Assembly: GCA_016872495.1 (NCBI GenBank)
Contig: VGZT01000004.1
Location: 1-64,000 of the forward strand
Length of the DNA: 64,000 bases
From: SAR202 cluster bacterium
GTDB lineage: Bacteria; Chloroflexota; Dehalococcoidia; Lucifugimonadales; Lucifugimonadaceae
Reading direction: 5' to 3'
Positions within the stretch are counted from its first letter, which is position 1, and every line of letters starts with the position of its first letter. This document shows positions 19,524 through 42,976 of this stretch, piece after piece. The translations under genes were made by a program, and so were the position numbers. Under the pieces are notes generated by a model. The model was not told the origin of the DNA and did not search any database. It saw only the letters and a list, made by a program, of their open reading frames with translations.

Positions 19524-19524
19524 T

Positions 19525-20745: not shown

Positions 20746-21918
20746 ATGAAGGCTGGCCCGAAGATCACGAAGATCGAAGTAACTGGCTACAGCTATACCA
20801 TCGAGAACGTAGGCCGCGACTACAACACGTTCAACATGGTCTACGAAAAGGGCGGCAAACGGACCGCCACTTCAGGCGTGCTGCAGATCCACACCGACCA
20901 GGGGATCACCGGCGAGTACATGGGGCTGCGCGGGCCGACCATGGCGCAGGTCGCCATTGTCGCGGAATACCTCATCGGCAAGAACGCGCTGGAACGCGAG
21001 AAGATCTACCAGGACGTGAAGCGCGGCCTCCGCCACTTCGACATGACCGGGGTCGGACCGATCGACATCTGCCTGTGGGACATCGCCGGGAAGATGTTCG
21101 ACCAGCCGCTGTACCGGATGCTCGGCGGCTGGCGCAAGCCGCTGCCCGCCTATGCCAGCACCCTGCACGGCGACGAGAACGGGGGCCTCAGCACCCCGGA
21201 ACAGTTCGGCGACTTTGCCGTGCAGTGCCAGGAGATGGGTTACCAGGCGTTCAAGATCCACGGCTGGGGCCTTGGCGGCCAGCGTATCGAACGTGAGGAA
21301 CAGAACGTCCTGCTCGTCCGCAAGCGCGTCGGCGACCGCATGGCGCTCATGATCGACCCGGCATGTGAGTACGAGAACTTTGCGCAGACCTTGCGGGTTG
21401 GCCTTGCCTGCGACGAAGCCAAATTCTTCTGGTACGAGGACCCGTACAAGGATGGCGGGGTCTCGGAATTCGCCTACAAGAAGCTCCGCCAGATGATCAA
21501 GACGCCGATCCTGCAGACCGAGCACATCCGGCTGCTGGAGCAGCACGTGAACTTCATCGTGGCCGAAGGCACGGACTACGTCAGGGCCGGCGCCCACGAG
21601 GACGGCGGCATCACCGGGACGATGAAGATCGCCGCGGCATCAGAGGGATTCGGCCTGGACGTTGAACTCCACGGGCCGGGACCGGTGCACCGCCACATCA
21701 TGTCCGCGATCCGCAACACGAACTGGTACGAGCTCGGGCTGGTCCATCCCCTGGTCCGCACGACGAGGGCGCCCGGCTACCTCAACTACAACGACGACCT
21801 CGACGGGATCGACAAGCAGGGCAACGTCTTTGCGCCCGAGGGGCCTGGCATCGGCGTCGAACTGGACTGGAGCTACATCAAGCAGCACCAGACCGACCAC
21901 CAGTCCTGGGGCGGCTAA
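20746..21918 (+). CDS. Mandelate racemase/muconate lactonizing (enolase superfamily) protein
   Basis: About 390 residues of the enolase superfamily. Metal ligands are expected in MIDPACEY (Asp near residue 205), WYEDPY (Glu near residue 231) and LQTEHI (Glu near residue 255). The second-strand motif reads FKIHGW (K-x-H) and a late His lies in ELHGPGPVHRH. These features suit an acid-sugar dehydratase, which removes water from an aldonate to give a 2-keto-3-deoxy acid. Start ATG 20746 follows GGAGG by 7 bases; a much longer upstream frame is antisense to the dehydrogenase gene. SAR202-type Chloroflexota are known for many paralogues of this superfamily. Confidence 0.9.
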   Translation: MKAGPKITKIEVTGYSYTIENVGRDYNTFNMVYEKGGKRTATSGVLQIHTDQGITGEYMGLRGPTMAQVAIVAEYLIGKNALEREKIYQDVKRGLRHFDMTGVGPIDICLWDIAGKMFDQPLYRMLGGWRKPLPAYASTLHGDENGGLSTPEQFGDFAVQCQEMGYQAFKIHGWGLGGQRIEREEQNVLLVRKRVGDRMALMIDPACEYENFAQTLRVGLACDEAKFFWYEDPYKDGGVSEFAYKKLRQMIKTPILQTEHIRLLEQHVNFIVAEGTDYVRAGAHEDGGITGTMKIAAASEGFGLDVELHGPGPVHRHIMSAIRNTNWYELGLVHPLVRTTRAPGYLNYNDDLDGIDKQGNVFAPEGPGIGVELDWSYIKQHQTDHQSWGG

Positions 21919-22336: not shown

Positions 22337-23428
22337 TCAGAACCTGACCTTGCCGGCTGCCGAGACGGCCGACACTCCCTTGAAACCCCGCTCGGGCACG
22401 TCATACGCGATCGCCCTCATCGTGGCCGTACGTGTTTCGCCCGCGCGCATCTTCACGGCCGTGCTGCGGCGGCTCCCCGGAAGCGGCCGGCCGTTCGACA
22501 GGCTGGTGAAAGGCTCTAACCCTATGTTGTAGGTGCGCCGGTACCATGGATAGCCGCTGCCGCCGCCGAACACCTGCCAGTACCAGAGGTACTTGAACGT
22601 AGAAACCGGATACGCGAACGCGAACCCGACCCTGCGCTCGGGGTTCGAAACGGCATACCAGCCCGCTGGCATCTCGGTGACGACCGCGTAGTCCTGGACC
22701 CTGGCGCTCTTCTTCGGGAAGGTCCTCAGGTCGACCGGCTCGCCGTCCCTCCCGATCAGCTCGGGCCACTCCGCCGACTGCCCGGTCTTCAGTCGCCGGG
22801 TCCGCTGCCCCCCTTCGCCGGGCACGATCACAGTGCCCCCCGGGACATCCAGCCGGCAGGCCGGACTCAGGAACGGACCGCCAAGTGCGATGTGTTGCCC
22901 CCAGACGCACTCGGCGGGCTCTTCCGCCTCATTGGTGACGGACTCTTCGATCGTGAGGACCGGCGATCCCGCCTCGAGGCTCAACGTCTTCTCGATGCGG
23001 AATGGCGTCCGATAGGTGCGGACCCAGAAACGAGCGCTGACTCTGCGCACGTCGTCTTCCAGGATCTGGACGTCCCAGGGCATGGTGGTGGCTTCCGAGT
23101 GCTGTCCGATCTCGGCTCCCGCGTAGGTCATTGGCTGTCCACCGGTCGGAGCCAGCGTCTGCCAGCCACCCTCGTAAACATCGTGCCACAGGCCGTCAGG
23201 CCAGCCAGTCGTGGGAATGAACCGCCTCGGGTCGCGCACGCCCCACGGCGTCCGCCACATGAAGTCGGTATCAGTGGGCTTGTGGATCAGCTCGTAGATA
23301 TCCGCGCCCTTGTCCGCCAGTACCGTGACCCGCAAGAGATCGTTCTCGATGATCACGACTTTCAAGCCGCGGTAGGTCCACGCGTCGGAGATCCGGCAGC
23401 CATGTGTACGTTCGACTTGATAATGCAT
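22337..23428 (-). CDS. DUF4432 family aldose-1-epimerase-like protein, copy 2
   Basis: A 363-residue paralogue of the protein at 18441-19523, with the same blocks: MHYQVERTHGCRISDAW at the start, HKPTDTDFMWRTPWGVRDPR, MPWDVQILEDD and GYPWYRRTYNIGLEP near the end. ATG 23428 is chosen because homology starts immediately. The two copies bracket the dehydrogenase, enolase-superfamily and clpS genes. Divergence between copies is clear in the middle third (residues 195-245), where substrate contacts may differ. A CATAAT upstream (near 23494) could be its -10 box. Confidence 0.82.
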   Translation of the reverse strand: MHYQVERTHGCRISDAWTYRGLKVVIIENDLLRVTVLADKGADIYELIHKPTDTDFMWRTPWGVRDPRRFIPTTGWPDGLWHDVYEGGWQTLAPTGGQPMTYAGAEIGQHSEATTMPWDVQILEDDVRRVSARFWVRTYRTPFRIEKTLSLEAGSPVLTIEESVTNEAEEPAECVWGQHIALGGPFLSPACRLDVPGGTVIVPGEGGQRTRRLKTGQSAEWPELIGRDGEPVDLRTFPKKSARVQDYAVVTEMPAGWYAVSNPERRVGFAFAYPVSTFKYLWYWQVFGGGSGYPWYRRTYNIGLEPFTSLSNGRPLPGSRRSTAVKMRAGETRTATMRAIAYDVPERGFKGVSAVSAAGKVRF

Positions 23429-23557
23429 GTGACAGGTACCCCTGAAGCTGGAAATGCGGGTTTTCGCCAATTCAGATGAGGAATGGCACGATTATGCTTG
23501 ATTGCTCGGCACCGCCATACTGGTTGTGCAGTCGAGGCCTGACGCGCGGAAGGGTTG

Positions 23558-24049: not shown

Positions 24050-24925
24050 ATGACCGGACTGGCCGTTCTGCTCGTAGTCCTTTCCGCGTTCGCTCACAGT
24101 GGCTGGAACTTCCTCACGAAGCGAGCGAGCAACCCCGAAGTCTTCACCTGGGCCGCCGCGGTGTCGGCAAACGTGTTGCTGTTCCCGCTCGCCCTGTTTC
24201 TACTGCTCAGGGACCCGCCCTCGCTCGCCGGCTGGGGGTTCGTCGCGGCCACCTGGGGCCTGCACCTCGCCTACTTCACGACCTTGAGTCGGGCCTACCG
24301 GCACACCGATCTATCGCTCGCATATCCGATGGCGCGCGGCACCGGCCTGGTGCTGGTCCCGATCCTGGGCGTCTTCCTGCTCAAGGAGCACGTAACGCCG
24401 CTCGCCGCAATTGGCATCGGACTGGTCGTGACTGGCATCTTCGCGGTTTCGGCCGGCGATCTCCTGCGCGACGGGGTTGCAGGCCTCGGCAAGGCGCTGC
24501 GACAGCCAGGGGTCCGCTACGCGCTGGCCACGGGACTGATAATCGCCGCCTACTCGATCGTAGACAAGCGAGGCGTCGCCCACGTCACCCCGCTCCTGTA
24601 CATGTACTTCCTGACCACGTCAGCCACCCTGGGCATGCCGTTGCTGTTGCGCAGCCAGTTCACACGCACCAACGTGATCGCCGAGTGGCGCCGGAACGCC
24701 CGGCTGATCGTCGTCTCGGGCCTGCTGCAGTTCGCCGCCTACTCGCTCGTGCTGACCGCGCTGACGGTCAGCCGGGTCAGCTATGTTGCGCCCTTCCGAG
24801 AGATCGGTATCGTCGTGGGCGTCCTTCTGGGATCGATCCTGCTCAATGAGTCGTTCAAGCGGTCCCGGCTACTGGGAGCCGCCCTGATCGTGGCCGGCGC
24901 GACGACCATCGCGCTGGCGCCTTGA
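24050..24925 (+). CDS. EamA/DMT family transporter
   Basis: A 291-residue inner-membrane protein with about ten hydrophobic helices in two homologous halves, typical of drug/metabolite (EamA) exporters. First-half landmarks are HSGWNFLTKRASNP (residues 16-29) and SLAYPMARGTGLVLVPILGVFLLKE. The second half has YALATGLIIAAYSIVDKRGV and VSYVAPFREIGIVVGVLLGSILLNE, with the usual Glu-ending repeat. The exported substrate is unknown. It converges with the SDR gene at 24935, with 9 bases between stops. Confidence 0.88.
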   Translation: MTGLAVLLVVLSAFAHSGWNFLTKRASNPEVFTWAAAVSANVLLFPLALFLLLRDPPSLAGWGFVAATWGLHLAYFTTLSRAYRHTDLSLAYPMARGTGLVLVPILGVFLLKEHVTPLAAIGIGLVVTGIFAVSAGDLLRDGVAGLGKALRQPGVRYALATGLIIAAYSIVDKRGVAHVTPLLYMYFLTTSATLGMPLLLRSQFTRTNVIAEWRRNARLIVVSGLLQFAAYSLVLTALTVSRVSYVAPFREIGIVVGVLLGSILLNESFKRSRLLGAALIVAGATTIALAP

Positions 24926-24934
24926 GCCTGCCGG

Positions 24935-25873
24935 CTAGCCGGCGAACGCCCGGTCGCGCCAGGAGTACTTCGGCCGCCAGTTGATCAGCTGACGTGCCCG
25001 CTCGGTCGAGATCGGGGCCTCATGCCGAACGAACTCCTTGCGCAGCGGCACGTTGGGGTAGACCAGCCGCAGGGCCTCCATGGTTTCCACTGCAATCATC
25101 GTGTCATCGGCATTGAGAAAGAACTTCTCGCTCCCGGCCCAACCCTCGGACTCTATGGCCATGCGGCATGCCGTTGCCGCGTCCTTGATGTGGAGGTAGG
25201 TCCAGAACCCCTGGCAGCGGACCCAGGGATCGGTGACGGGAGACCGGTGAAGCTCCCTGAAGCGCTCGTCGTCCCACATCCCGTTGAAGCGCATGTTGGA
25301 ATACTGGGTCTCCGGGTTGCGCCTTGCGAACGCGTCTGCGGTCTGCTCGCCTAGCCATTTGGCGACGCTGTATGGATCCTCGGCGCGCGTCCCGACCTCG
25401 TGGTCGAGCGGGAAATACTCGGGCGGCTTCACCTGCCGCGGCGCCCAGCGCGCCGCAGTGCCCATCGCGCCCACCGCGTTGTACGACGATCCCAGGACGA
25501 CCTTGCGCACCTTCAACTGCTCTGCCGCCCGCATCACGTTCCACATCGAGGTCGTGTTGGTGAAGAAGACGAACTCTTCGGTGTAGTAGGCCGCGCTCGG
25601 GCAGGCAGCCAGGTGCACGACGGCCCCGCAGCCGTCCATCGCCGAAATGACCTGCCCGTAGTCGGTGACATCGACCTCGATGAAGGTCGGCAGCCTCGAC
25701 CAGGCGGCTCGCATGGTCACCGCGGCCGCCTGGGCAGCCCCGGCAGTCCCGCTGTGGCTCAGGTTGCCCCAGCGGACCTTGTCGGCATTAACGACCTCAT
25801 AGCCATTTCGCAACAACTCGTCGATGACGTAGTGCCCGACGATTCCAGAACCGCCGGTTACCAGGACTTTCAA
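24935..25873 (-). CDS. NAD-dependent epimerase/dehydratase (extended SDR)
   Basis: A 312-residue extended SDR. The GGSGIVGHYVIDELL nucleotide motif is at residues 7-21, the acidic NADK strand end near residue 30, the HLAACPSA segment near residue 88, Ser/Asn in LGSSYNAVG near residue 128 and catalytic YSVAK near residue 168. The PEYFPLDHE loop and the C-terminal INWRPKYSWRD motif resemble UDP-glucose 4-epimerase-like and uronate dehydrogenase-like proteins. Together with the aldolase-like gene just upstream it forms a minus-strand pair, 101 bases apart. Confidence 0.86.
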   Translation of the reverse strand: MKVLVTGGSGIVGHYVIDELLRNGYEVVNADKVRWGNLSHSGTAGAAQAAAVTMRAAWSRLPTFIEVDVTDYGQVISAMDGCGAVVHLAACPSAAYYTEEFVFFTNTTSMWNVMRAAEQLKVRKVVLGSSYNAVGAMGTAARWAPRQVKPPEYFPLDHEVGTRAEDPYSVAKWLGEQTADAFARRNPETQYSNMRFNGMWDDERFRELHRSPVTDPWVRCQGFWTYLHIKDAATACRMAIESEGWAGSEKFFLNADDTMIAVETMEALRLVYPNVPLRKEFVRHEAPISTERARQLINWRPKYSWRDRAFAG

Positions 25874-25974: not shown

Positions 25975-26862
25975 CTAAACGGGCATCTTGCGCTTGCTGA
26001 CCTTGCGTCCTTCGATCGCCATCCGCTCGCCGTCCTGGCCGGAGACGATCTTCACGCCCATCTTCAACAGGTGGCGGATCCTCTGCTCAGGCGTCATCTT
26101 GCTATCGTTCCAGGAGCACAGGAACGCGATTCCCGCCTTGTCGCATGCCGCCTGGACGCGCTTGCGCGCATCGTCCATCTTCTTCGGGTACGGGGGGTCG
26201 TGAGCGTCAGGCAGTCCGAGCGACATGCCCATGTCGCCCGGGCCCCACTCGGCGAACGAGATTCCGGGAACCGCCGCGCTTTTCTCGCAGTTCGCCAGGC
26301 ATTCGGCGTCCTCGAGCTTGAGCCCGAGCATGAGCTCGCCCTTCGGGTTCAGTGGCCACGGATCGGACGCGGCCAGGTAGTCGTGTACCGAGAGCCCCCA
26401 GATTCTGGCGGGTATCGACTGTCCGCCCGCGCCGCGCTGCCCCTTTCCAAGGCCCGCCTTCGCACTGGAGAAAGGCCAGCGGCACTCCTCAACGAACGCC
26501 TTCACTGCTTCCGGAGTCCGCGCGTGCGTGTGCAGGATCCCGTGCACCCCGGCCGTGAGCACGTGGCGGATCTGCCAGGCGTTGTAGCGGACCTCCTCGG
26601 CGGTCTTGGCGTTCGACGGGAGCGTGACTATGACGGTCGGTGTCAGGTGACCGCTGGTGGTCGGGCCGGAGTCCCGGAGACCTTCCATGAACCTTGTCAG
26701 CCCAACCGTGTCGAAAGGGTGGTGCTCGAAGTCCACCGAGATGAAGTCGGCCCAGGTCCTGGACATCTTGACGCCGGCTTCGTAACTCAGCTCGGGCGTG
26801 CCCGTGTAGAAGATCGGCTGCCCCTGTTGAAGCAGCTCGATGCACCGGTTGATCCTTGCCAC
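25975..26862 (-). CDS. HpcH/HpaI aldolase-like protein, long subfamily, copy 1
   Basis: A 295-residue TIM-barrel protein related to the 2-keto-3-deoxy acid and citramalyl-CoA-type aldolases (HpcH/HpaI). Landmarks are SRTWADFISVDFEHHPFD (metal-site region) near residue 34, YNAWQIRHVLTAGVHGILH near residue 95, a Gly-rich insert near residue 140, and FAEWGPGDMGMSLGL near residue 205, in the place of the family's V-G-P-x-D-L-S motif. A close paralogue lies at 39890-40774. The family cleaves 2-keto acids to pyruvate and an aldehyde using a divalent metal. Substrate unknown. Confidence 0.83.
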   Translation of the reverse strand: MARINRCIELLQQGQPIFYTGTPELSYEAGVKMSRTWADFISVDFEHHPFDTVGLTRFMEGLRDSGPTTSGHLTPTVIVTLPSNAKTAEEVRYNAWQIRHVLTAGVHGILHTHARTPEAVKAFVEECRWPFSSAKAGLGKGQRGAGGQSIPARIWGLSVHDYLAASDPWPLNPKGELMLGLKLEDAECLANCEKSAAVPGISFAEWGPGDMGMSLGLPDAHDPPYPKKMDDARKRVQAACDKAGIAFLCSWNDSKMTPEQRIRHLLKMGVKIVSGQDGERMAIEGRKVSKRKMPV

Positions 26863-27015: not shown

Positions 27016-27045
27016 GTGAACTTGCTTCTTGAAATGACTTCTTGA
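27016..27045 (+). CDS. Possible 9-codon leader peptide upstream of MFS gene
   Basis: GTG 27016 opens MNLLLEMTS, with TGA at 27043-27045 nested in the TTGA that starts the MFS gene. The arrangement would allow a leaderless mRNA to translate the short peptide and pass ribosomes to the TTG start. It is very short and could be chance. Confidence 0.25.
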   Translation: MNLLLEMTS

Positions 27046-28424
27046 AGGTGGGCACCAGCGACACCGCCACTGGGAGCCCGGAACAACCGCCTCTAACGCC
27101 CGACCTCGAGATCCGCCCGTGGTCCGCGTTCGCGCACCGCGACTTCACGTGGTTGTGGGTCGGGGGCGTGACGACCACGGTCACGATGTTCCTGCGGATG
27201 CTCGTGAGCTCGCAGTGGCTCTACGACACCACGGGCTCCGCCGCACAGCTCGGCATCCTTGGCTTCATCCAGTTCATCCAGATGCCGGTCGTGATCTACG
27301 GCGGCGCGCTCGCCGACAACTTCGACCGCAAGAAGCTGATGGCGATGACCCAGGCCGTCGTCTTCGTGTCCCTGCTGATCCTCACCGTCCTGGCGGCTTC
27401 GGGCGGCCTGCTGCCATGGCACATCTTCGCGGCGACCGGCGTCACAGGTGTATTCAGCATGCTCGGCAGCTCGGCGCGACCGGCCATGGTCGCACGGGTC
27501 GTACCGCGCCCGTTGATCGGCACCGCGGTAGCCACCAACACGGCCACCATGCAGGTCGCCGGTGTGATCGCTCCCCTGCTGTTCAGCGCCTTCTACGTGG
27601 CGTTCGGTGTCACGGTGGCCTTCGCAGTCGCTACCGCAATCGCGTTCGCGAGCTTCGTGTCGCCGTTCCTGATACGGACTTCCGGGCTCCCCGACGGCGG
27701 TTCGCGACGGACGACCTGGAAGTCGATCGTCGAAGGGTTCACCTTCGTCCGGAAGCACCGAATCCTGCCCGGCCTGTACCTGCTCGACATCGGGGTAACC
27801 GTCGTCAGCTTCTACCGGATGCTTTTCCCGATCTTCGCCGACCAGCTGTACGGGCTGGGCGCGATCGCAGTCGGCCCGCTCAACGCGGCCAACTCGCTCG
27901 GCGGGATATTCGGCAGCATGGTCGTCTACGGGACTGACCGCTTCCCACGCAAGGGGCTGCTCGTCCTGTTCTTCACGCTGGTCTACGCCCTGCTGCTCTT
28001 TGCCTTCGGGATGAACCGGGCGGGGCCCGGGGACCCGATCCATCAGATGAACCTGCTGATCGTCGACTTCCAATTCAACATGGCCCTGCTGTTCGGACTG
28101 CTGATCGTATTCGGGCTCGGAATGACCGACTCCGTCAGCATGGTGATGCGCCAGACGATCGTGCAGCTAACGTCCCCCGACCGCCTGCTCGGGCGCGCCA
28201 GCTCAGCGCACTCTTTCGCCGCCATGGGCGCCAACAACCTGGGCCAGGTGGAGGTCGCATTCATGTCCGGAGCGATCGGGGCCGGACCCACGATGATCCT
28301 GGGCGGCGCGGTGTCGGTGGTCGTAGTCTTCGCAATATGGGTCGGGATCAAGGGCGTGCGGAGGTACCGGTACGATCCAGCCCATCCGTTTGAGGCATAC
28401 GAAGGCGGCAAGCCGCCCGAATAG
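27042..28424 (+). CDS. Major facilitator superfamily transporter (MFS_3/EntS-like)
   Basis: A 460-residue membrane protein with about twelve hydrophobic helices. The first helix pair is FTWLWVGGVTTTVTMFL and the loop 2-3 motif GGALADNFDRKK near residue 87 matches the MFS G-x-x-x-D-x-x-x-R-K signature. The order of helices and the domain-join segment (residues 205-235) recall enterobactin-exporter-like MFS_3 proteins. Substrate unknown. TTG 27042 is the chosen start; GTG 27048 is an alternative. It precedes the 589-residue gene by 23 bases on the same strand, so the two are likely co-transcribed. Confidence 0.88.
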   Translation: MKVGTSDTATGSPEQPPLTPDLEIRPWSAFAHRDFTWLWVGGVTTTVTMFLRMLVSSQWLYDTTGSAAQLGILGFIQFIQMPVVIYGGALADNFDRKKLMAMTQAVVFVSLLILTVLAASGGLLPWHIFAATGVTGVFSMLGSSARPAMVARVVPRPLIGTAVATNTATMQVAGVIAPLLFSAFYVAFGVTVAFAVATAIAFASFVSPFLIRTSGLPDGGSRRTTWKSIVEGFTFVRKHRILPGLYLLDIGVTVVSFYRMLFPIFADQLYGLGAIAVGPLNAANSLGGIFGSMVVYGTDRFPRKGLLVLFFTLVYALLLFAFGMNRAGPGDPIHQMNLLIVDFQFNMALLFGLLIVFGLGMTDSVSMVMRQTIVQLTSPDRLLGRASSAHSFAAMGANNLGQVEVAFMSGAIGAGPTMILGGAVSVVVVFAIWVGIKGVRRYRYDPAHPFEAYEGGKPPE

Positions 28425-28447
28425 ATCGAGACCGAGGAGATCGCTCA

Positions 28448-30217
28448 ATGCCAGACCGCGCAAGCCAGGCAACCATCGACATCACCGTTCCAATGGCGCC
28501 ACCCGAGTGGGCGCTCCTGGAGCGTGAACTGATACGGCAACAGGCCGACGCCATCCGGGTATTCCACGCCAAGTACTTTGACGAGCGCGGCTACCTGCTA
28601 TGCATCCCGCGCTGGGGCGGCAACGATGGCCCCGACGACGCCGGCGAGAACATGCTGAACTGGACCATGCTGTACGCCCTTGGCGGGCCCAGTGATGTGC
28701 TCGACCGCTTCCGGCACGCATGGGAAGGCCATCTCCGGCAGTACACGGAAGCCAGGACGGTTGAAGTACCGCTCGGCCGGGAGGGGATGTACTTCAAAGA
28801 GTTCCCAACGATGTTCGACTGGTTCCATATCGGCGAGTGGTACTCGCCCTACGCCCTGCTCGGCCTGGCCGCGCCCGGCGACAGGGATTTCGAACACCGT
28901 ACCCGGCGGTACGCCGCCTTCTACAACGGCGACGACCCCTACGCTCCCAACTACGACCCCAAACACCGGATCATTCGAAGCATGTTCAACGGGAGCCGCG
29001 GGCCTTTGCTCAGGAAGGCAACGGGCCTCGACTGGGCGGGCGATCCAATCGAGATCGAAGGTCGCTTCAAGCCGGGCCACGGTGAGCGAACCTTCGAAGA
29101 GATGATCGCCCACTTCAAGGACTACAACGACGTCGTTGGAGACAACCCGCTCAACCTTGGCGCCACGACGCTGGGGCTGAACGCGTTCGCGCTGACGGGA
29201 GAAAAGAAGTACCGCGACTGGTGCCTCGAGTATGTGGGCGCCTGGGCGGAGCGGACCGCGGAAAATGGCGGCCTGACACCAACGAACATTGGCCTCAATG
29301 GCAAGATCGGCGGCGAAACGAAGGGCAAGTGGTACGGCGGGGTCTACGGGTGGGGTTTCTCCGTCATCGTGCCCCAGACCGGTGAGATCGCACACAGGCC
29401 GTCGTTCTACACGCGGGCGCCTTACGGGTTCGGCAACGCCCTCCTGCTGTCCGGCGATCAGTCGTACGTCGACACCTGGCGAGGAGTGATCTCGAAGGTG
29501 AACGAAAACGGCAAGCGCCTCAAGGGGCAGATGCAGTACCCGCGCTCCTTTGGCGACAAGGGCTGGTACAACTTCCAGCCCGGCCCGTTCGACGAAGGCG
29601 CGCTGGAGGTCTACTACTGGTCGATGAAGGCAGATGATCGCTCGCTCGTCGGCGACGATCCCTGGGTCCGCTTCTTCTCAGGCAAGGGCAGGAGCAAGAA
29701 CGACGGATATCCCGTGGACGCGCTGCGGAGCGACATCGAGCGCGTCCGGCGACGCGTCGAGGGTATCCACACCGACGATACCGCCCCTGATATGCGGATG
29801 TCGGACGACATGAACGACCTTAACCCGGCGTCGATCGACGCCCTGAACCGCCTGATGCTCGGCGGCATCCCGACCGGGCGGGTCGGATACCCGCTGCACT
29901 GCCGCGTCCGCTATTTCGATCCCGACAGGCGGCGGCCCGGCATCCCCGAAGACGTGGCTGCCCTGGTCGACGAGATGACCGCCGATGAGACCGGGCTAAC
30001 CCTCGTTAACCTGAACCAGCTCCAGCCCCGCACGGTGGTCGTGCAGGGGGGCGCTTACGGTGAGCACCAGGTCGTTAGCGTCCGAGGCGGCGAGAAGTCT
30101 TCGACCGTGAACGACCGCAGCTTCACGGTCCGGCTGGCGCCCGGCGCCGGAGCGCATCTGTTGATCAAGATGAAGCGGTACGCCAACCCGCCGACATTCT
30201 CGCTGCCCTGGGCCTGA
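28448..30217 (+). CDS. Unrecognised 589-residue protein, perhaps alpha/alpha-toroid glycosidase-like
   Basis: No confident family was recognised. The chain has no signal peptide or membrane segment. Its aromatic- and acid-rich repeated helical segments (FDWFHIGEWYSPYALLGLA near residue 122; NLGATTLGLNAFALTGEKKYRDWCLEYVGAW near residue 236; GFGNALLLSGDQSYVDTWR near residue 324; WYNFQPGPFDEGALEVYYWSMK near residue 377) look like the hairpins of six-hairpin glycosidases or lyases. The last 80 residues look like a small beta domain. Start ATG 28448 follows GAGGAGA by 8 bases. It follows an MFS transporter closely, suggesting action on an imported carbohydrate-like substrate; this is inference. 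Confidence 0.75.
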   Translation: MPDRASQATIDITVPMAPPEWALLERELIRQQADAIRVFHAKYFDERGYLLCIPRWGGNDGPDDAGENMLNWTMLYALGGPSDVLDRFRHAWEGHLRQYTEARTVEVPLGREGMYFKEFPTMFDWFHIGEWYSPYALLGLAAPGDRDFEHRTRRYAAFYNGDDPYAPNYDPKHRIIRSMFNGSRGPLLRKATGLDWAGDPIEIEGRFKPGHGERTFEEMIAHFKDYNDVVGDNPLNLGATTLGLNAFALTGEKKYRDWCLEYVGAWAERTAENGGLTPTNIGLNGKIGGETKGKWYGGVYGWGFSVIVPQTGEIAHRPSFYTRAPYGFGNALLLSGDQSYVDTWRGVISKVNENGKRLKGQMQYPRSFGDKGWYNFQPGPFDEGALEVYYWSMKADDRSLVGDDPWVRFFSGKGRSKNDGYPVDALRSDIERVRRRVEGIHTDDTAPDMRMSDDMNDLNPASIDALNRLMLGGIPTGRVGYPLHCRVRYFDPDRRRPGIPEDVAALVDEMTADETGLTLVNLNQLQPRTVVVQGGAYGEHQVVSVRGGEKSSTVNDRSFTVRLAPGAGAHLLIKMKRYANPPTFSLPWA

Positions 30218-30268
30218 GGCGTATTCCGCATCTGTCGCGCCCTGCCAAGGGAATCCGTACCGAAAAAG

Positions 30269-30295
30269 AAAGGCGGGGCATCGTGCCCCGCCTTT
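30269..30295. terminator. Bidirectional terminator hairpin
   Basis: AAAGGCGGGGCA (30269-30280), loop TCG, and TGCCCCGCCTTT (30284-30295) form a perfect 12-base-pair stem with A-rich and T-rich ends on either side. It sits between the convergent 589-residue gene and the Ldh2 gene and can serve both strands. Confidence 0.88.
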
Positions 30296-30333
30296 CCCGT
30301 GTTGCTGACTGGTGCTGAAGAGATTCCTGCGTC

Positions 30334-31422
30334 CTACTTTCTGGTGGCCGGCAACCGGTCCTTCAAGCCCAGCTCGGCGACCGTCCCCTTGAACCACTCG
30401 ACGACCTCCGGGTGGTACGGGATACCGTTCACGGAACGGTCCATCTCTGCCTCGTGCTCGGGAAGCCCGGCGTACATCACCCGCTCGTGCCCGGGCGCGG
30501 GCGGCGTCTCGCGCAGGGCGCGCATGAAGTCGTCCATCTCGGACTTGAACTTCTCGACGTCGTTGAAAGCCGACACCTTGAAGGCCGCGAAGAAGTGGGA
30601 TGCCATCCCCCGGTTCTTATAGCCGGGCCCGGTCCCTGAGAGCACGCCGCAGAGGATGTCGACCATGACGGCCATGCTGTAGCCCTTGTGCGAACCGATC
30701 TCGCGGGTCGCGCCCAGCGGCAGCATGAGGAAGTCGTCCGGGATCGGCCTGCTGTCCATGATCGGCGTGCCGTCCGGTTCCGCGATCCACCCGGGCAGCG
30801 CCGGTACCCCGAGCCGTTTCGCAAGTGCGATCTTGTTCCCCGCAACGGAGCTCATCGACGCGTCGAAGATGAAGGGCGGCTCCTTGCGCGTCGGCGCCGC
30901 GAACCCGATCGGATTCAGGCCCACCATCGGCTTCGAACCAAACGTCGGCGCCACCCTCAGGCCGCCAACCGTCATGGCCATCCCGATCATGTCGTGCGGC
31001 AGGGCAAGCTGCGCGTGGTACGCCGCCGCGCCAAAGTGCCGCCCGTTGGTGCAGGTGACCGCGCCCACACCCGTGCGCTCCGCCTTCTGAATGGCGACCC
31101 GCATCGCAATCGGGCCAACGGCCAGGCCAAGCCCGCGGTCGCAGTCGATGGTGGCGGCCGAATCGGTTTCGTGTACCACCTTCCATTTCGGCTTTGGATT
31201 GATAGAGCCCTTGCCAAACCCTTCGACATACGAACGCATCATGTTGCTGACGCCGTGGCTCTCGATGCCGCGCAGGTCCGCATAGATCAGGACGTCCGCC
31301 GACTGGCGGGCATCGGTGTCGCCCATGCCCATCTTTCGGAAGATGTCCTCGACCGTAGATCGGATGTCCTGTTGCGCAACGCGCACCGCGATGTCGTGGG
31401 GGACGTGGAACATTTCGAGCAC
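30334..31422 (-). CDS. Malate/L-lactate dehydrogenase (Ldh2) family oxidoreductase
   Basis: A 362-residue member of the NAD(P)-dependent Ldh2 family (malate, L-sulfolactate, ureidoglycolate or 2,3-diketogulonate reductases), which does not use a Rossmann fold. Signature segments are ADLRGIESHGVSNMMRSYVEG near residue 49 (catalytic His), NGRHFGAAAYHAQLAL near residue 127, GLNPIGFAAPT near residue 169 and GSHKGYSMAVMVDILCGVLSG near residue 246. It would reduce a 2-oxo acid, or oxidise a 2-hydroxy acid, such as one released by an aldolase. Exact substrate unknown. Confidence 0.92.
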   Translation of the reverse strand: MLEMFHVPHDIAVRVAQQDIRSTVEDIFRKMGMGDTDARQSADVLIYADLRGIESHGVSNMMRSYVEGFGKGSINPKPKWKVVHETDSAATIDCDRGLGLAVGPIAMRVAIQKAERTGVGAVTCTNGRHFGAAAYHAQLALPHDMIGMAMTVGGLRVAPTFGSKPMVGLNPIGFAAPTRKEPPFIFDASMSSVAGNKIALAKRLGVPALPGWIAEPDGTPIMDSRPIPDDFLMLPLGATREIGSHKGYSMAVMVDILCGVLSGTGPGYKNRGMASHFFAAFKVSAFNDVEKFKSEMDDFMRALRETPPAPGHERVMYAGLPEHEAEMDRSVNGIPYHPEVVEWFKGTVAELGLKDRLPATRK

Positions 31423-31508: not shown

Positions 31509-32510
31509 CTATGCGTTCGGCTTGACGACCAGTTTGACCCCGCGTCCTTGACCGGAGTCGTAGATCGCATCGGCGGCCCGCTCCAGCGGATACCGCGTCG
31601 TGATGACGCCCTTCAAGTTTAGTTCGGGCAGCAGCTGCAACGTCTTCTTGAAGTAGTTGCCCCGGCCAAAAGCCCCACGTATGCCGACCTCGCGGTAGTG
31701 GAGGTCGTAGAGGTCGGACGGTAGCGTCGTCCCCTTCGGACACACACCGATCATCAGCACGTTGCCGCGCGGGCGCACCAGCTGTACACAGCGGGCGACA
31801 AGTTCGGGCTTGCCAACGACCTCCACGGCGAGATGCACTCCCCTCCCGCCGGTCTCGCGATCCACGACCTTCTTGAGGTCCTCCATCTTTGGATCGTGCA
31901 GGACGTCGGCGCCCAGCTGGCGTCCCAGCTCGCGCCGTGAGGCCACCGGCTCCGAAAGGATCACCGTCCTGGCACCTCGGCGCTTCAGGAAGGCGACCGT
32001 GAACTGGCCCATGATCCCGCCGCCGACTACCAGCACGACTGCGTCTTTCGGCATCGGAAACACCATCGAGCCCGACAGGCAGCAGGAACCCGGCTCCGTC
32101 AGGGCTCCGGTCTCGAGATCGATCCCCTCAGGCAGCCTGTGCGCCGATTGCGCCGGTACCACCGCATAGTTCGCAAGCGCCCCGCTCGACTTCTGGGCGC
32201 GCTGGCACCGGCTGATCGTCCACTCGCGGCAGTTGTCACACTCGCCGCAGTGGCTGGTGATATCGCAGACGACCTGCTGACCGATCCGTGCCTTCGATAC
32301 CCCCTTGCCAACCTCTACGACGGTTCCGCTGAACTCATGCCCGAGTATGAGCGGAGGTGTAGAGGGAAACAGCCCCTGCGTGATGTGTACGTCGGTCCCG
32401 CACACGCCAACAGTGTCGACCTTGAGCACGACCTGCCCGGGACCGGGGACCGGGTCGGGAACGGTGTCGATCGTAAACTTCGTCCCGCCTTGCCAGACCG
32501 CAGCTTTCAT
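31509..32510 (-). CDS. Zinc-dependent medium-chain dehydrogenase
   Basis: About 333 residues from ATG 32510, which follows a GTAGGAAAC ribosome site. Catalytic zinc motif GVCGTDVHI is near residue 36 and GHEF near residue 59. The four structural Cys lie in HCGECDNCREWTISRC near residue 90. The cofactor motif is VGGGIMGQF near residue 164. It resembles polyol or 2-deoxy-sugar-acid dehydrogenases of the MDR class. A longer reading frame upstream is only antisense to the divergent dehydrogenase gene. It follows the Ldh2 gene's 5' end by 86 bases on the same strand (upstream of it in transcription). Confidence 0.88.
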   Translation of the reverse strand: MKAAVWQGGTKFTIDTVPDPVPGPGQVVLKVDTVGVCGTDVHITQGLFPSTPPLILGHEFSGTVVEVGKGVSKARIGQQVVCDITSHCGECDNCREWTISRCQRAQKSSGALANYAVVPAQSAHRLPEGIDLETGALTEPGSCCLSGSMVFPMPKDAVVLVVGGGIMGQFTVAFLKRRGARTVILSEPVASRRELGRQLGADVLHDPKMEDLKKVVDRETGGRGVHLAVEVVGKPELVARCVQLVRPRGNVLMIGVCPKGTTLPSDLYDLHYREVGIRGAFGRGNYFKKTLQLLPELNLKGVITTRYPLERAADAIYDSGQGRGVKLVVKPNA

Positions 32511-32745
32511 GTTTCCTACTTTCCGTGGACGGTGACCGAGCCGCCGAAGGCGCCCTCTACGGCAATCGGGCTCGCCTGTGAAATGCGCAGAGAGGCCCGG
32601 GAAGTATAGCCTCGCCGTGGACACGCTCTGTCTCCCGGCGTAAATTGGCAACCCATCGCGCGCGAACTCGCCGGGATCGACGTCGATCCTTGCGCCGATC
32701 GAAAGTCGTGCAGGGTCGAACCACCAGAACCGCAGGAGCGAACAA

Positions 32746-33867
32746 GTGGTCCTCAAAGGTAGAGCCGCCATCGGACAGGGCCCTCGGTCCGAATTCTGGA
32801 TCGAAGAGTTGCCCGTGCCGGAAGTCGTACCGGGATCCGTGCTGGTGAAGAACACCGGGGCCGCGGTGTGCGGGTCCGACCTCCACGGATGGCGCGGCGA
32901 CCAGGACGGGCCGGTCACGCCCCGCAAGCGCATCCCCGGTCACGAGTTCACGGGCCGCGTTCACTCTCTGGGCAAGGGCGTTTCCACCGACTCGCTCCGC
33001 CGCCCGCTGAAGGAAGGCGACAAGGTCGTCTTCCCGTTCTTCTTCCCATGCATGCGCTGCTACCACTGCCTGCGCGACCAGCTCTACGCGTGCCAGTACC
33101 GGTTCCGCAGCAACTTGACCCGCACGTTCGAGGACTACCCGTACTGCGACGGCGGCTTTGCCGATTATTTCTGGCTCAAGCCCGGGCACTTCGTGTTCAA
33201 GGTCCCCGAGGAACTGCCCGACAAGGCGCTGGCGACGATCAACTGCTCCATGGCCCAGGTGATGTTCGGATTGCACCTCGCCCAGCCGAAACAGGGCGAC
33301 ACGGTGGTCGTACAGGGTGCAGGCGGGCTGGGCATCTACGCCACCGCCTGCGCAGCTGAAGCGGGCGCCTCACAGGTCATCGTCGTCGACGGCCAGAAGG
33401 CGCGTCTCGACCTCGCGTTGCGCTGCGGCGCAACCGCCACGGTCGATCTCAACGAATACCCGACTCCCCAGGCCCGCGTGGACCGCGTGCGCGAGCTGAC
33501 CGGCGGTATCGGTGCCGATATCGGCATCGAGGTCGTGGGCATCGCAGCGTCCACGCTCGAAGGTCTCGACATGGTCCGCATGGGCGGCACCTATGTCGAC
33601 ATCGGGAACATCTCAGGCGGCAGCTTCCAGCTGGCCGGCAACAAGGTCATATCAAGGCAGACCAGGTGGATCGGGCTGCAGCACTACAACCCGTGGATCC
33701 TCGAATCGTGCCTCCAGCTGCTGGTCCGCACGAAGGACAAGTACCCGCTGCTGGACCTGGTCTCGCACACCTTCCCACTGGAGAAGATGAATCAGGCCTT
33801 CGAAACGGCGGAATGGGTCGGTAAGCAGAAGGGCTCAGCCGCGACACGCGTCGTCGTGACCCTCTAG
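32746..33867 (+). CDS. Zinc-dependent medium-chain dehydrogenase
   Basis: A 373-residue MDR enzyme divergent from the previous one (235-base shared upstream region). Catalytic zinc segment AVCGSDLHGW is near residue 40 and PGHEFTG near residue 64. Structural-zinc-like Cys are in PCMRCYHCLRDQLYAC near residue 101, and the cofactor loop is GAGGLGIYATACA near residue 189 with acidic VVD following. The loop at residues 75-90 is longer than usual. Start GTG 32746 is supported by AGGAG at 32733-32737. Substrate unknown; related proteins are called L-threonine or alcohol dehydrogenase-like. Confidence 0.88.
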   Translation: MVLKGRAAIGQGPRSEFWIEELPVPEVVPGSVLVKNTGAAVCGSDLHGWRGDQDGPVTPRKRIPGHEFTGRVHSLGKGVSTDSLRRPLKEGDKVVFPFFFPCMRCYHCLRDQLYACQYRFRSNLTRTFEDYPYCDGGFADYFWLKPGHFVFKVPEELPDKALATINCSMAQVMFGLHLAQPKQGDTVVVQGAGGLGIYATACAAEAGASQVIVVDGQKARLDLALRCGATATVDLNEYPTPQARVDRVRELTGGIGADIGIEVVGIAASTLEGLDMVRMGGTYVDIGNISGGSFQLAGNKVISRQTRWIGLQHYNPWILESCLQLLVRTKDKYPLLDLVSHTFPLEKMNQAFETAEWVGKQKGSAATRVVVTL

Positions 33868-34128: not shown

Positions 34129-34965
34129 CTACTTGCCCCGGCGGCGGCCACTCCCGCCCATCCATGCGGCCGCCTTCCTGCGTGCCGATGGGGTGTCGAA
34201 AGCGGCGCGGAACTCTGCAAAGTATCTGACTGATCCCTGCGTGCCGAGCCCCAGCACGCTGCTAACGTTCATGAAGCGATAGCCAACTTCGATCCAGCGG
34301 CGGCAGTCCTCGGGATCGCCGAAGGTGGTCCCGAGCGCCTTGCCGGTGCCCCTGACACGATCGGCCATCTCGAGCATGATCTTCTCGACCTTCGGGTGGT
34401 GAATCTTGCCCGGAAAGCCCAGCGAGGCAGAGAGGTCGGTCGGGCCTACGAGCAGCACGTCGAAATGCTCGAGGGCCAGGATCTCGTCGACATTCTCGTA
34501 GGCCTCGACGCTCTCCATCTGAATGATCAGCAATGTCTCATCGTTGGCATGCTTGATGACGTCGTCCTGGGTCAAGCCCATCATGCCGCCAAACCACGGC
34601 GCGATGCCGCGCTCCCCGATCGGCGGGTACTTGGCGAAACGAACGGAGTCCTTCGCTTCCTGAGGGGTGTCGACCTGGGGGACCATGACGCCGACCGCAC
34701 CGACGTCGTACGCCTTCTTGATGTCGCCGGGATCGTTCCAGGCGACCCGTATCACGCCGGCAACGCCAGCCTGGCGCGCCATCACGCAGATCGGGCCGAT
34801 CGACTCGGTGCCCCACGGCTCGTGCTCCTGGTCGATCCAGACCCAGTCAGGCCGCGTCTGGAACACCGCTGCGGCCACGTACGGTTCCCTGGAGAACATA
34901 CCGGTACCCAGGCAGAGTTCACCGTTGCGCAACCGCTTCTTGATGTCGCTGGGGTACATGGGCAC
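34129..34965 (-). CDS. HpcH/HpaI family aldolase, canonical subfamily
   Basis: A 278-residue metal-dependent class II aldolase of the 2-keto-3-deoxy acid type. The classical pattern is present: LCLGTGMFSREPYVAAAV (residues 17-34), PDWVWIDQEHEPWG near residue 39 (Asp and the base pair with His), GVMVPQVDTPQEAKDSVRFAKYPPIGERG near residue 92 and VLLVGPTDLSASLG near residue 170. It would cleave a 2-keto-3-deoxy or 4-hydroxy-2-keto acid to pyruvate plus an aldehyde. The two ATGs at 34965 and 34959 are equally possible. The C-terminal 15 residues are basic and variable. Confidence 0.9.
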   Translation of the reverse strand: MPMYPSDIKKRLRNGELCLGTGMFSREPYVAAAVFQTRPDWVWIDQEHEPWGTESIGPICVMARQAGVAGVIRVAWNDPGDIKKAYDVGAVGVMVPQVDTPQEAKDSVRFAKYPPIGERGIAPWFGGMMGLTQDDVIKHANDETLLIIQMESVEAYENVDEILALEHFDVLLVGPTDLSASLGFPGKIHHPKVEKIMLEMADRVRGTGKALGTTFGDPEDCRRWIEVGYRFMNVSSVLGLGTQGSVRYFAEFRAAFDTPSARRKAAAWMGGSGRRRGK

Positions 34966-35066: not shown

Positions 35067-36533
35067 CTAGCGGCCGCCCGCGATGCGGTAGACGCGCCCG
35101 TCGAAGGCGGTGATATAGAGCTCCCCCGCAAGGTCCTGCCCGAACGACGAGATCTGCAGATCGGTATCAAGCAGCTGCCGCGCCGCGACCACCCTGCCGT
35201 CGATCCTGCGCAGGCCCCAGATGATGCCGGAGCAGAAATCGGCATACAGGTAGACGCCGGCCAGCCCGGGGATCGATGCTCCTCGATACACATAGCCACC
35301 GGTAACAGCACAGCCAGGCTCACGGGTGGGGTACTCAACCACCGGCGGTATCAACCCGGACATGTCACAAGGCGTGGACCGGTAGCAATGCGCACCCTCC
35401 ATCACATTCCACCCGTAGTTGCCGCCCTTCGTGACCACGTTTACCTCTTCCCAGGCGTTCTGACCGACATCGCCGGCCCAGAGTTCGCCGGTCGACCGGT
35501 CGAACGAGAATCGGAACGGGTTGCGAAACCCGTAGGCCCATATCTCAGTCAATGCCTCGGTCGCCGGGCGGCCGACAAATGGATTGTCGTTCGGCACCGA
35601 ATAGCCCTGCCTTGCGCCGCCCCGACCCGGATCGATCCTTAGAATCGAGCCGAGCAACGTCGCCAGGTTCTGTCCGTTGCCCTGGGGATCGCCACCGCTA
35701 CCACCGTCCCCGAGCGCCACATACAGGTATCCGTCCGGCCCGAAATCGATCATCCCGCCGTTGTGATTCGAAAACGGCTGCCCTACCTCGAGCACGACCT
35801 GCTCGCTTGCGGGGTCGGCTCTTCCGGCCGCGGCGTCGGCCACAAACCGGCTGATCACTGATCGCCTGGGGTTCGTCGCCGAGTAGTGCACGTAGAAACG
35901 CCCGTTGTGCGCGTAGTCCGGGTCGAACGCTAACCCCAGCAAGCCCTCTTCATTCCCCTGGGTAGATACGCGGTCTGAAATATCCAGGAACAGCTCAGCT
36001 CCAGATGGCGGGGATGCCAGCGATAGAAGGCGGACGCGTCCGGCCTGCTCGACGACTACCGCCCTGCGCGACCCGTCAGGGACTTCTGCGAAGTACAGCA
36101 GCCGCCTGCCAAGAGCTCCGTCGTTCAACGATGGAAAGGCGGGCACGACTGCAATCGGGGGTATCACGTTGCCCGGCACAGGAATGGCGGGCGATGTGGG
36201 GGCAGGCGCTTGCGTCGGTGACACGACCACCGTCGCCGTGGGCGGCGCGACCGCCGTGGGCGGCACCGGTACGGTCGCCGTGGGCGGCGCGGTCGCCGTG
36301 GCCCGCGGCACGGATGGCGCCGTCGCCGTGGCCCGCACCGGTACGGTCGCCGTCGCCGACGGCGGCAGCACCGTGGGAGTGGCGGAGGCCGCCACGCGCG
36401 TCGAGCCGGCCGCTGGCGATGGCGTCACGTCGACGGGCGACTCCGCGGGGTCGAGAACGTTCGTACAGGCGGCGAGGACCACCGGCACAGTCATGAAAAT
36501 CAACAGCGACCGCACGAGGCAGTTTCTCCTCAT
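35067..36533 (-). CDS. Secreted PQQ-type sugar dehydrogenase (glucose/sorbosone dehydrogenase) lipoprotein
   Basis: About 488 residues from ATG 36533. The start has a basic tip, a hydrophobic run and the lipobox LAAC (Cys 22). A Pro/Thr/Ala-rich spacer (about residues 28-115) follows. The C-terminal domain is the six-blade soluble glucose-dehydrogenase fold: GNEEGLLGLAFDPDYAHNGRF near residue 195, FSNHNGGMIDFGPDGYLYVALGDGGSGGD near residue 255 (catalytic-His region) and IWAYGFRNPFRFSFD near residue 330. The family oxidises aldoses to lactones with PQQ. It probably acts on the cell surface. Divergent from the LOG-family gene. Confidence 0.88.
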   Translation of the reverse strand: MRRNCLVRSLLIFMTVPVVLAACTNVLDPAESPVDVTPSPAAGSTRVAASATPTVLPPSATATVPVRATATAPSVPRATATAPPTATVPVPPTAVAPPTATVVVSPTQAPAPTSPAIPVPGNVIPPIAVVPAFPSLNDGALGRRLLYFAEVPDGSRRAVVVEQAGRVRLLSLASPPSGAELFLDISDRVSTQGNEEGLLGLAFDPDYAHNGRFYVHYSATNPRRSVISRFVADAAAGRADPASEQVVLEVGQPFSNHNGGMIDFGPDGYLYVALGDGGSGGDPQGNGQNLATLLGSILRIDPGRGGARQGYSVPNDNPFVGRPATEALTEIWAYGFRNPFRFSFDRSTGELWAGDVGQNAWEEVNVVTKGGNYGWNVMEGAHCYRSTPCDMSGLIPPVVEYPTREPGCAVTGGYVYRGASIPGLAGVYLYADFCSGIIWGLRRIDGRVVAARQLLDTDLQISSFGQDLAGELYITAFDGRVYRIAGGR

Positions 36534-36541
36534 CCCGGTGA

Positions 36542-36547
36542 TACGAT
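36542..36547 (+). promoter_or_regulatory. Extended -10 box of the LOG-family gene, leaderless arrangement
   Basis: TGATACGAT (TACGAT at 36542-36547) ends 6 bases before ATG 36554. Confidence 0.4.
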
Positions 36548-36553
36548 CACTCG

Positions 36554-37225
36554 ATGCCAAACGATGCGGAATCGAAGACCTTGCAGGCTTCGCCGAGCCG
36601 GGCGAGCCATGGCGACCTATCAAACTTCCCACACATGGCCGTTGGTGTCATGGGATCGGCTGGCGGCGAACTGTCGCCTGAGACCAGAGCGCTCCTCAGG
36701 CAACTCGGCCGGGAGATAGGCAGGCGAGGTTACGTCCTGGTGACCGGAGCCTGCCCGGGGCTTCCGCACGAAGCTGTCCTCGGCGCCAAATCGGCGGGCG
36801 GCATGGTGGTCGGCATCTCGCCTGCCCTGAATCTCCGTGATCATCTGGTCAACTATGCGTCGCCGTCGCGCGGCTACGACCTCATCGTTTACACGGGCAG
36901 CGGACTGATGGGGCGCGAGGTCGAGAACATCCGCACCTGCGACGTCGTGGTGTTTGCCGGAGGCCGATCCGGCACCCTCGGCGAGTTCGCGATCGCCTAC
37001 GACGAATCCAAAGTGATCGGAGTGCTCACGGGCACTGGCGGTATCGCCGATCACATCGCAACTATCGTGAAGATGGTCAACAAGAGGACTGGCGCCATTA
37101 TCTGCCAGAACTCCGATCCCGTAGCTCTGCTGGATGAGCTGGAGCAGGCCTACCGGCGGAACGTCCTGCCACGCTACCTGAAGGCGCTCCGAGAGCAACA
37201 GCCGGACGGCGTCCTGGAGCGCTGA
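36554..37225 (+). CDS. LOG/SLOG family protein (TIGR00725-like)
   Basis: A 223-residue Rossmann-like SLOG protein. Motifs seen are VGVMGSAGGELSPETRALLRQLGREIGRRGYVLVTGACPGLPHEA (residues 30-74) and FAGGRSGTLGEFAIAYDE near residue 134, matching the G-G-x-G-T-x-x-E nucleotide motif of LOG proteins. LOG enzymes release the ribose-phosphate from nucleotides; this branch (often called molybdenum-cofactor carrier-like or lysine-decarboxylase-like) has no certain substrate. ATG 36554 fits the -10 box, but ATG 36635 nearer the homology is an alternative. Confidence 0.85.
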   Translation: MPNDAESKTLQASPSRASHGDLSNFPHMAVGVMGSAGGELSPETRALLRQLGREIGRRGYVLVTGACPGLPHEAVLGAKSAGGMVVGISPALNLRDHLVNYASPSRGYDLIVYTGSGLMGREVENIRTCDVVVFAGGRSGTLGEFAIAYDESKVIGVLTGTGGIADHIATIVKMVNKRTGAIICQNSDPVALLDELEQAYRRNVLPRYLKALREQQPDGVLER

Positions 37226-38913: not shown

Positions 38914-38943
38914 CTACACACCTCCTATAGATAACCCGGCTTG

Positions 38944-38972
38944 ACCATAGCTATCGCAAAGCTACTTGTCAA
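38944..38972 (-). promoter_or_regulatory. Sigma-70-type promoter of the DUF5679 gene
   Basis: On the minus strand TTGACA (38972-38967), a 17-base spacer and TATGGT (38949-38944). This is the best-matching promoter in the window and predicts a leader of about 25 bases containing the GGAGGTG site. Confidence 0.75.
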
Positions 38973-39055
38973 GTATTTCTTTCGAATCCTCATACCTGAT
39001 CCATTAATAAAACGCGGGCCGGTCACAGAGTATCCCAGCCTGATTTGCCGTTCCT

Positions 39056-40774: not shown

Positions 40775-40861
40775 GCGACGCGACTCCCTCATGCTGAATC
40801 CGACTCGGGCGAAAATTACACGATAAGGCAAGACTGCGTACGCAAGTGACCGCGCGAGGCC

Positions 40862-42751: not shown

Positions 42752-42976
42752 GCCCGCGCCCTCTCGCTCAAATCAGCCCTACGTTGCCCCTCGATGAGGG
42801 ACTCGGGATCGGCTACCCGTCGATGGGACCCTGGATCCGCGGCACGGGCCCGTGGTCCGGTGCCGGTCAGCAACCTGACTGGGCACCGCCTGATTTGCGT
42901 GGCCCAAACCTGCTGGCATACGATGCGTGCGCACCCCGGCGCGCGAAGCCCGTAACGGAGTCAGACTGGAGTGGGC

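Follow-up and report, generated by a model that had tools for sequence, protein, structure and literature searches.

A widespread protein family without a name in Pfam or NCBIfam, present in a SAR202 cluster bacterium: likely alpha/alpha-toroid fold and candidate glycoside hydrolase

Introduction

What could be the function of a 589-residue protein that matches no family in Pfam or NCBIfam and is encoded directly after a transporter gene, amid genes for enzymes of the sugar-acid type? The question is raised by an open reading frame (ORF) at positions 28448-30217 on the plus strand of the window, i.e., the whole stretch of 64,000 nucleotides of SAR202 cluster bacterium DNA that was analyzed here. 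In the portions of Lim et al. 2023 (PMC10444878) drawn on in this study, growth of a SAR202 strain in culture is enhanced by fucose and rhamnose, and the usual fucosidase and rhamnosidase families are absent from its genome. Strain JH545 is reported there without GH29, GH95, GH141, GH78 and GH106, and it is suggested that the cultivated strain may scavenge free monomers (PMC10444878).

Results and Discussion

The gene and its flanks

The gene is an intact ORF in the ORF list of the window, with an ATG start preceded, at a distance of 8 nt, by the Shine-Dalgarno-like motif GAGGAG (28434-28439, plus strand; read from the sequence), and thus is as well formed as the first-pass annotation had described it. 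A terminator had also been placed after the gene. The 13-bp GC hairpin at 30268-30296, between convergent genes, is indeed strong (z -3.87), but lacks a T-run, and no terminator was returned by the scan at these positions. Upstream on the same strand lies a gene for an MFS transporter (MFS_1/MFS_3; 27042-28424, with an uncertain start at 27042 or about 27186; MFS_1 match at 2.5e-21), whose stop at 28424 leaves a gap of 23 nt to the 28448 ORF.

The protein had been described as matching no nameable family, and this held in the searches: neither Pfam nor NCBIfam gave a match to it at E<=1, and a single-sequence search of the PDB returned one match only, at E 2.1.

Distribution of the family

Homologues of nearly full length are present in many genomes, and the gene is therefore more than a chance ORF. 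With the window's own genome counted each time, members were found in 29 of 301 genomes of the phylum Chloroflexota, in 29 of 250 genomes of the window's order and in 5 of 197 genomes in the survey of its class, and genomes named SAR202 and Baikal-deep Dehalococcoidia are amongst the carriers. Members also occur in 17 plasmid records (haloarchaea, alphaproteobacteria and actinomycetes) and in one Latescibacterota MAG. Viral contigs (three scans) and phage records contained no relative, and G190, which belongs to the same taxonomic family as the window and consists of a single 3.1-Mb contig, gave no match. Five genomes of the order (G125, G157, G697, G698 and G699) carry at least 5 copies each, these copy numbers being minima since no more than 5 candidates were scored per genome. 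In G125, three members stand in tandem, followed by an aldo/keto reductase gene (L108:4536-10718). Two members (L082:7511-9463 and L104:158-2173) are split into two open frames and may be decayed copies or assembly errors.

The family proved as nameless as the window protein. When 56 members were searched against Pfam, 18 families were matched at E<=1, with 0.028 as the lowest E of any member; 19 members searched against NCBIfam gave a lowest E of 0.11; and the 56-row family profile found nothing credible amongst the PDB sequences (lowest E 0.13). A literature search by accession found no paper mentioning members. Altogether, this is a real, old and widespread family that has no name in Pfam, NCBIfam or the PDB sequences.

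A tree of 60 rows, rooted at the midpoint only, separated the members into three groups. Group I (24 rows, support 100) holds the window protein, other Chloroflexota, the Latescibacterota and two alphaproteobacteria; group II (15 rows, support 100) has 14 rows from genomes G125 and G157; and group III (21 rows, support 93) contains haloarchaea, actinomycetes and other Chloroflexota. Alignment A3 retains 56 of the 60 aligned members, with L090 (an ambiguous base) and L082, L103:2381 and L104 (incomplete) omitted.

Conserved residues

Amongst the members with a residue at the respective position, D63 (57/57), D64 (56/57) and E67 (57/57) are near-invariant, and H127 (58/58), E130 (58/58) and D232 (60/60) are invariant. 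These six residues, together with the beta domain, are common to all three subfamilies. Over 60 members, R151, D170, W258, Y262, W266 and W302 are also conserved in the main domain, as are R488, D491, R496, N521, Q533, E539 and H540 in the beta domain, and the columns compared across groups hold in all three of I, II and III. The only near-invariant histidines are H127 and H540, the latter within the beta domain, and no cysteine column is conserved at 88% or more in the 60 members. In contrast to these shared positions, D199 and R317 are each fixed in group I (24/24), and neither is the prevalent residue in group II or III, as judged from the four commonest residues listed per group, which suggests that group I may have a specificity of its own. 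A cytoplasmic location, as initially proposed, fits the window protein, whereas two alphaproteobacterial members, and these alone, carry Tat-like leaders as recognized by eye.

Fold

An AF2 model built from five sequences reached a pLDDT of 51.4 and a pTM of 0.57 at full length, and the model of residues 1-484 alone was poorer (46.5 and 0.49). In the full-length model, strands predicted between residues 486 and 574 agree with the small C-terminal beta domain noted at first, leaving residues 1-484 as a probable alpha/alpha toroid. For both models, the top ranks of Foldseek and VIA-align were occupied mainly by GH127, GH76, GH47, AGE-type epimerases, PL2 and GH88/105, all of which are families of alpha/alpha toroids. 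No Foldseek E value fell below 1e-3 and no TM-score exceeded 0.42; the top VIA-align Z was 9.2 for the full-length model (147 residues, 3.7 A), within the range common for helical models (Z up to 9), and 7.6 for the domain alone.

The repeated helical segments described in the first-pass annotation were reduced to one pair. When the family profile was compared with itself, residues 243-272 paired with 328-357 at a score of 17.4, and this was the sole pair to exceed 60 column shuffles (10.2 +/- 1.5, maximum 14.7). Both segments are predicted as helix-turn-helix with a TGE or SGD turn. Profile comparison by hhalign linked the known toroid sets GH127, AGE and GH88 to one another with probabilities of 24-56%, but the family to them with only 0.9% (GH127), 2.5% (AGE) and 3.7% (GH88), against 4.0% for the top of 27 unrelated controls, all with small toroid profiles of 13, 6 and 6 rows. 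PF10022 had no match in 81 genomes.

These results can also be read to mean that the protein is not a toroid and that the fold matches are the product of a poor helical model. Such an explanation would account for the low pLDDT of both models, for Z values of a size that helical models commonly give and for an hhalign comparison that joins the known toroid families and leaves this one out. We nevertheless regard it as rather unlikely, since two separate models returned mainly toroids, one internal repeat was detected, and the small toroid profiles brought together even true pairs at the modest probabilities given above. An alpha/alpha toroid is thus the likely fold on the modeling results. The likeness to toroidal glycosidases or lyases that had been proposed finds partial support in the fold matches (mainly toroid sugar enzymes), the hairpin-like repeat, the near-invariant acids and the neighboring genes of sugar-acid type, but not in the hhalign comparison, and the models were too poor for the conserved acids to be placed relative to the toroid center.

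Amongst toroids, an AGE-type sugar epimerase or isomerase, rearranging a free sugar, would be in line with the AGE-type epimerases and YihS in the top rows of both models. AGE epimerases have two catalytic histidines, however, and in the present family the only near-invariant partner available to H127 is the histidine of the beta domain. Moreover, PF07221 is absent from the 18 Pfam families that the 56 members matched at E<=1, and we consider an epimerase very improbable.

Gene neighborhood in the window

Between 17.6 and 41 kb, the window contains a series of genes whose predicted products are of types used on sugars and sugar acids. On the upstream side these are an Amidohydro_2 protein (17643-18434, minus strand), which we take to be a possible sugar lactonase; two DUF4432 proteins (18441-19556 and 22337-23470, both minus); a zinc-dependent dehydrogenase (19525-20598, minus); an enolase-superfamily protein of the sugar-acid dehydratase type (20746-21918, plus), with gluconate/galactonate and talarate/galactarate dehydratase as its top matches, below cut-offs; an EamA-family permease (24050-24925, plus); an NAD-dependent epimerase/dehydratase family protein (24935-25873, minus); and a divergent HpcH/HpaI-family protein (25975-26862, minus). 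Downstream of the gene follow a protein of the Ldh_2-type malate/lactate/sulfolactate dehydrogenase family (30334-31422, minus), two further zinc-dependent dehydrogenases (31509-32516, minus, as the stretch scanned, with the longest ORF reaching 32933; and 32746-33867, plus), an HpcH/HpaI aldolase of the 2-keto-3-deoxy sugar acid type, below NCBIfam cut-offs (34129-34965, minus), a GSDH protein and a third HpcH/HpaI-family protein (39890-40831, minus). The strands alternate, so these genes form an island and not one operon.

None of the window proteins scanned against NCBIfam received a name above its cut-off. The epimerase-family protein at 24935-25873 was considered as a uronate dehydrogenase, an assignment left unsupported by the PDB search (no match at E<=1e-10). 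The GSDH (glucose/sorbosone dehydrogenase-type) protein at 35067-36632 has an N-terminal part rich in proline, threonine and alanine and is probably exported. Long ORFs at 38941-39789, 42971-44053 and 46823-48304 had no Pfam match at E<=1e-5.

By analogy, the island resembles the non-phosphorylative sugar pathways of SAR202, and this context speaks for sugar or sugar-acid catabolism; the pairing of the Pfam matches in the window with the COGs of those pathways is our own assumption. In the portions of the source used here, the pathways comprise COG3618, COG4948, COG1063, COG3836, COG0329, COG1028 and COG0667 (Lim et al. 2023, PMC10444878).

Gene context in other genomes

The close pairing with a transporter stood in the window, with its 23-nt gap, but was found at only one other locus in orthologous form. 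At L002, whose member is the closest relative of the window protein (79% identity), an orthologous MFS gene (71%) lies directly upstream; the genes beyond it agree with those of the window in length and strand, and one clusters with the window's epimerase. As this orthologue was found beside L002 only, the window's MFS was rejected as a conserved partner. At L113 (69% identity), an aminotransferase gene takes the upstream position, genes for an aldo/keto reductase, an epimerase and an Amidohydro_2 protein follow the member on the same strand, and a distant MFS (24%) is encoded at -3 on the opposite strand.

Elsewhere, Asticcacaulis and Sphingobium have MFS genes at -1 that are 69% identical to each other and have no match to the window's MFS, and L108 has another MFS gene at position -2. 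In L115 (phmmer E 3e-6), L085 and L086, which are loci of three related Chloroflexota genomes, an MFS gene sits at +1, those of L085 and L086 being grouped by BLAST with that of L115. In the neighbor count, for which 72 of 110 neighbors were scanned and 25 of 106 families listed, MFS_1 matched 4 of the 72 further neighbors. With MFS genes of a different kind next to members in two further lineages, some link of the family to transport is plausible.

An aldo/keto reductase gene stands at +1 on the same strand in 4 of 39 Chloroflexota positions and also in Nonomuraea. At assumed rates of 0.65-0.3% this corresponds to p of about 1e-4 to 6e-6, which is optimistic since the reductase was picked after 32 recurrent neighbor clusters had been seen; six of these genomes have 9-12 aldo/keto reductase genes each. 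Gfo/Idh/MocA genes were considered as a sign of 3-keto-glycoside chemistry. They are frequent as neighbors but plentiful in these genomes in general (27 genomes had 5-109 each), and were given no weight. The neighbors of subfamily I in Chloroflexota are otherwise mixed, some being housekeeping genes.

The two alphaproteobacterial loci share a nearby DHDPS gene of the kdgD type. The Asticcacaulis locus additionally has a cupin and a galactonate dehydratase, and that of Sphingobium includes several types known from aromatic catabolism (Cyclase, glyoxalase, FAA hydrolase and carboxylesterase). The Sphingobium genes, together with linalool dehydratase isomerase and lanthipeptide cyclases amongst the fold matches, would suit a toroid enzyme for a terpenoid, an aromatic product or another non-carbohydrate. 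This appears improbable, given that the window gene is surrounded by enzymes of the sugar-acid type and the haloarchaeal members by pectin genes, and that the isomerase and cyclase rows mostly rank below those of sugar enzymes.

Haloarchaeal plasmids and pectin

Each of the 12 haloarchaeal plasmids that carry a member encodes, in addition, a homologue of the Halostagnicola pectate lyase, which in Haladaptatus halobius is partial (56% of the query). Conversely, amongst the plasmid records with a pectate-lyase homologue covering 80% or more, 11 of 13 have a member. The gap between the member and the top-scoring homologue ranges from 66 bases to 39 kb, with a combined distance p of 4e-8 that assumes independent plasmids and is optimistic since the plasmids are related. 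Within flanks of 9-10 kb, a pectate lyase is annotated in 6 of the 12 loci, and the other annotated neighbors include GH28, GH4, glucuronate isomerase, mannonate dehydratase, DHDPS and IclR. These observations point to the use of oligogalacturonides or uronates by the haloarchaea of group III, and not in group I. Some of the loci have ThuA genes. A 121-aa gene lies directly upstream of the member in L117, L118 and L120, with a hemolysin-family gene downstream in L117 and L118; it was considered as a KdgF-type cupin and rejected, having no Pfam match at E<=0.001 at the three loci.

Pectin was dropped as a general substrate on the evidence from Chloroflexota. PL1 is present in 17 of 301 genomes of the phylum, in 0 of 29 carriers of the family and in 17 of 272 others (p 0.39, not significant; the PL1 and carrier counts assume the same 301 genomes). 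As PL1 is absent from the 29 carriers, the products of pectate lyases are not the common substrate, and substrates differ by clade. GH88 exceeded the cut-off in 5 of the 29 carriers and in 14 of the 272 other genomes (p 0.026), a weak difference considering that two families were tested. The window's genome has a separate GH88/GH105 homologue at G000:C49:1556-2452, in a 597-aa frame.

The company of pectate lyases in haloarchaea raises the possibility that the family itself consists of toroid lyases, which would split uronic-acid-containing oligosaccharides by beta-elimination through H127 and a conserved tyrosine instead of two acids. H127 and Y262 are invariant, arginines are conserved, and polysaccharide lyases are amongst the fold matches (PL2 at full length; PL38 and BACCELL_00875 for the domain alone). 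Alginate_lyase was also matched by 2 of the 56 members, although its lowest E of 0.067 is at the level of chance for 56 proteins. On the other side, the five near-invariant carboxylates are equally compatible with hydrolysis, the Chloroflexota carriers are devoid of PL1, and the models are too poor for the active site to be viewed. A lyase is, in our judgment, unlikely.

Proposed function

With about an even chance, or slightly less, we tentatively favor a glycoside hydrolase composed of an alpha/alpha toroid and a C-terminal beta domain, acting on the glycoside of an acidic or deoxy sugar by means of a carboxylate pair. In such an enzyme, residues 1-484 would form the toroid and bind the glycoside, with the beta domain packed against it. 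The glycosidic bond would be hydrolyzed by two carboxylates, most likely drawn from D63/D64/E67, E130 and D232, and the conserved arginines R151, R177 and R345 could bind a negatively charged group of the substrate sugar. Once liberated, the sugar or uronic acid would be oxidized, dehydrated and split, without phosphorylation, by the neighboring dehydrogenases, the enolase-type dehydratase and the HpaI-type aldolases. The haloarchaeal members would act on oligogalacturonides released by pectate lyases.

For the window protein itself, the substrate can be guessed to be a deoxy-sugar or uronic-acid glycoside, and the protein is probably an enzyme that cuts an unusual sugar off a larger molecule for consumption by the neighboring enzymes. 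Our reading of the common thread between the clades is that a sugar or uronic acid is released or converted and then enters an oxidative pathway free of kinases. The family may provide a step so far lacking in the sugar utilization known from aquatic Chloroflexi. A wider proposal is that the proteins form a new family of glycosidases, with substrates that differ between clades, serving as the sugar-release step of SAR202-type non-phosphorylative pathways and, in its haloarchaeal branch, in the use of pectin; this is a doubtful but serious possibility. If it is true, a whole enzyme family now annotated as hypothetical protein would gain a role, and the relatives in the order that carry the family, five of them with at least 5 copies each, may cut glycosides themselves instead of scavenging.

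Comparison with known systems

Of the known toroid enzymes, the GH127 beta-L-arabinofuranosidases (PF07944) are similar to the family in length and gave the top Foldseek rows; they consist of a toroid plus a C-terminal beta domain, the architecture that is probable for the family. The match was at E 1.7e-3 with a TM of about 0.2 on a poor model; only 1 of 56 members matched PF07944, at E 0.12 and below its cut-off of 24.9 bits; and hhalign gave the 0.9% mentioned above. GH127 enzymes use a cysteine nucleophile, for which the 60 members offer no column conserved at 88% or more. The GH88/GH105 unsaturated uronyl hydrolases (PF07470) are represented amongst the fold rows by 3wiw, 2fv0, 1vd5, 4xuv and 3pmm and share the uronide context seen in haloarchaea. 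They aligned with the 1-484 model at Z 5.8-6.8 (rmsd 5.9-7.2 A over 218-253 residues), and 3wiw with the full-length model (pLDDT 51.4) at Z 7.2 (5.5 A over 287 residues), but PF07470 was unmatched at E<=1 by the 56 members and hhalign stayed at 3.7%.

The GH76 alpha-1,6-mannanases gave the top rows of the second model (residues 1-484), and the near-invariant D63-D64 of the family recalls the adjacent catalytic D136/D137 pair in PDB titles of GH76; PF03663 was unmatched at E<=1 by the 56 members. The AGE-type epimerases and YihS (PF07221) gave the top VIA rows. Their PDB chains are shorter, at about 390-420 residues, PF07221 was likewise unmatched by the 56 members at E<=1, and hhalign reached 2.5%.

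At the level of pathways, the closest counterpart is found in the non-phosphorylative pathways of SAR202. The portions of that paper considered here name no protein of the family, and the enzyme types encoded next to the window gene resemble the seven paralogue sets described in them (PMC10444878).
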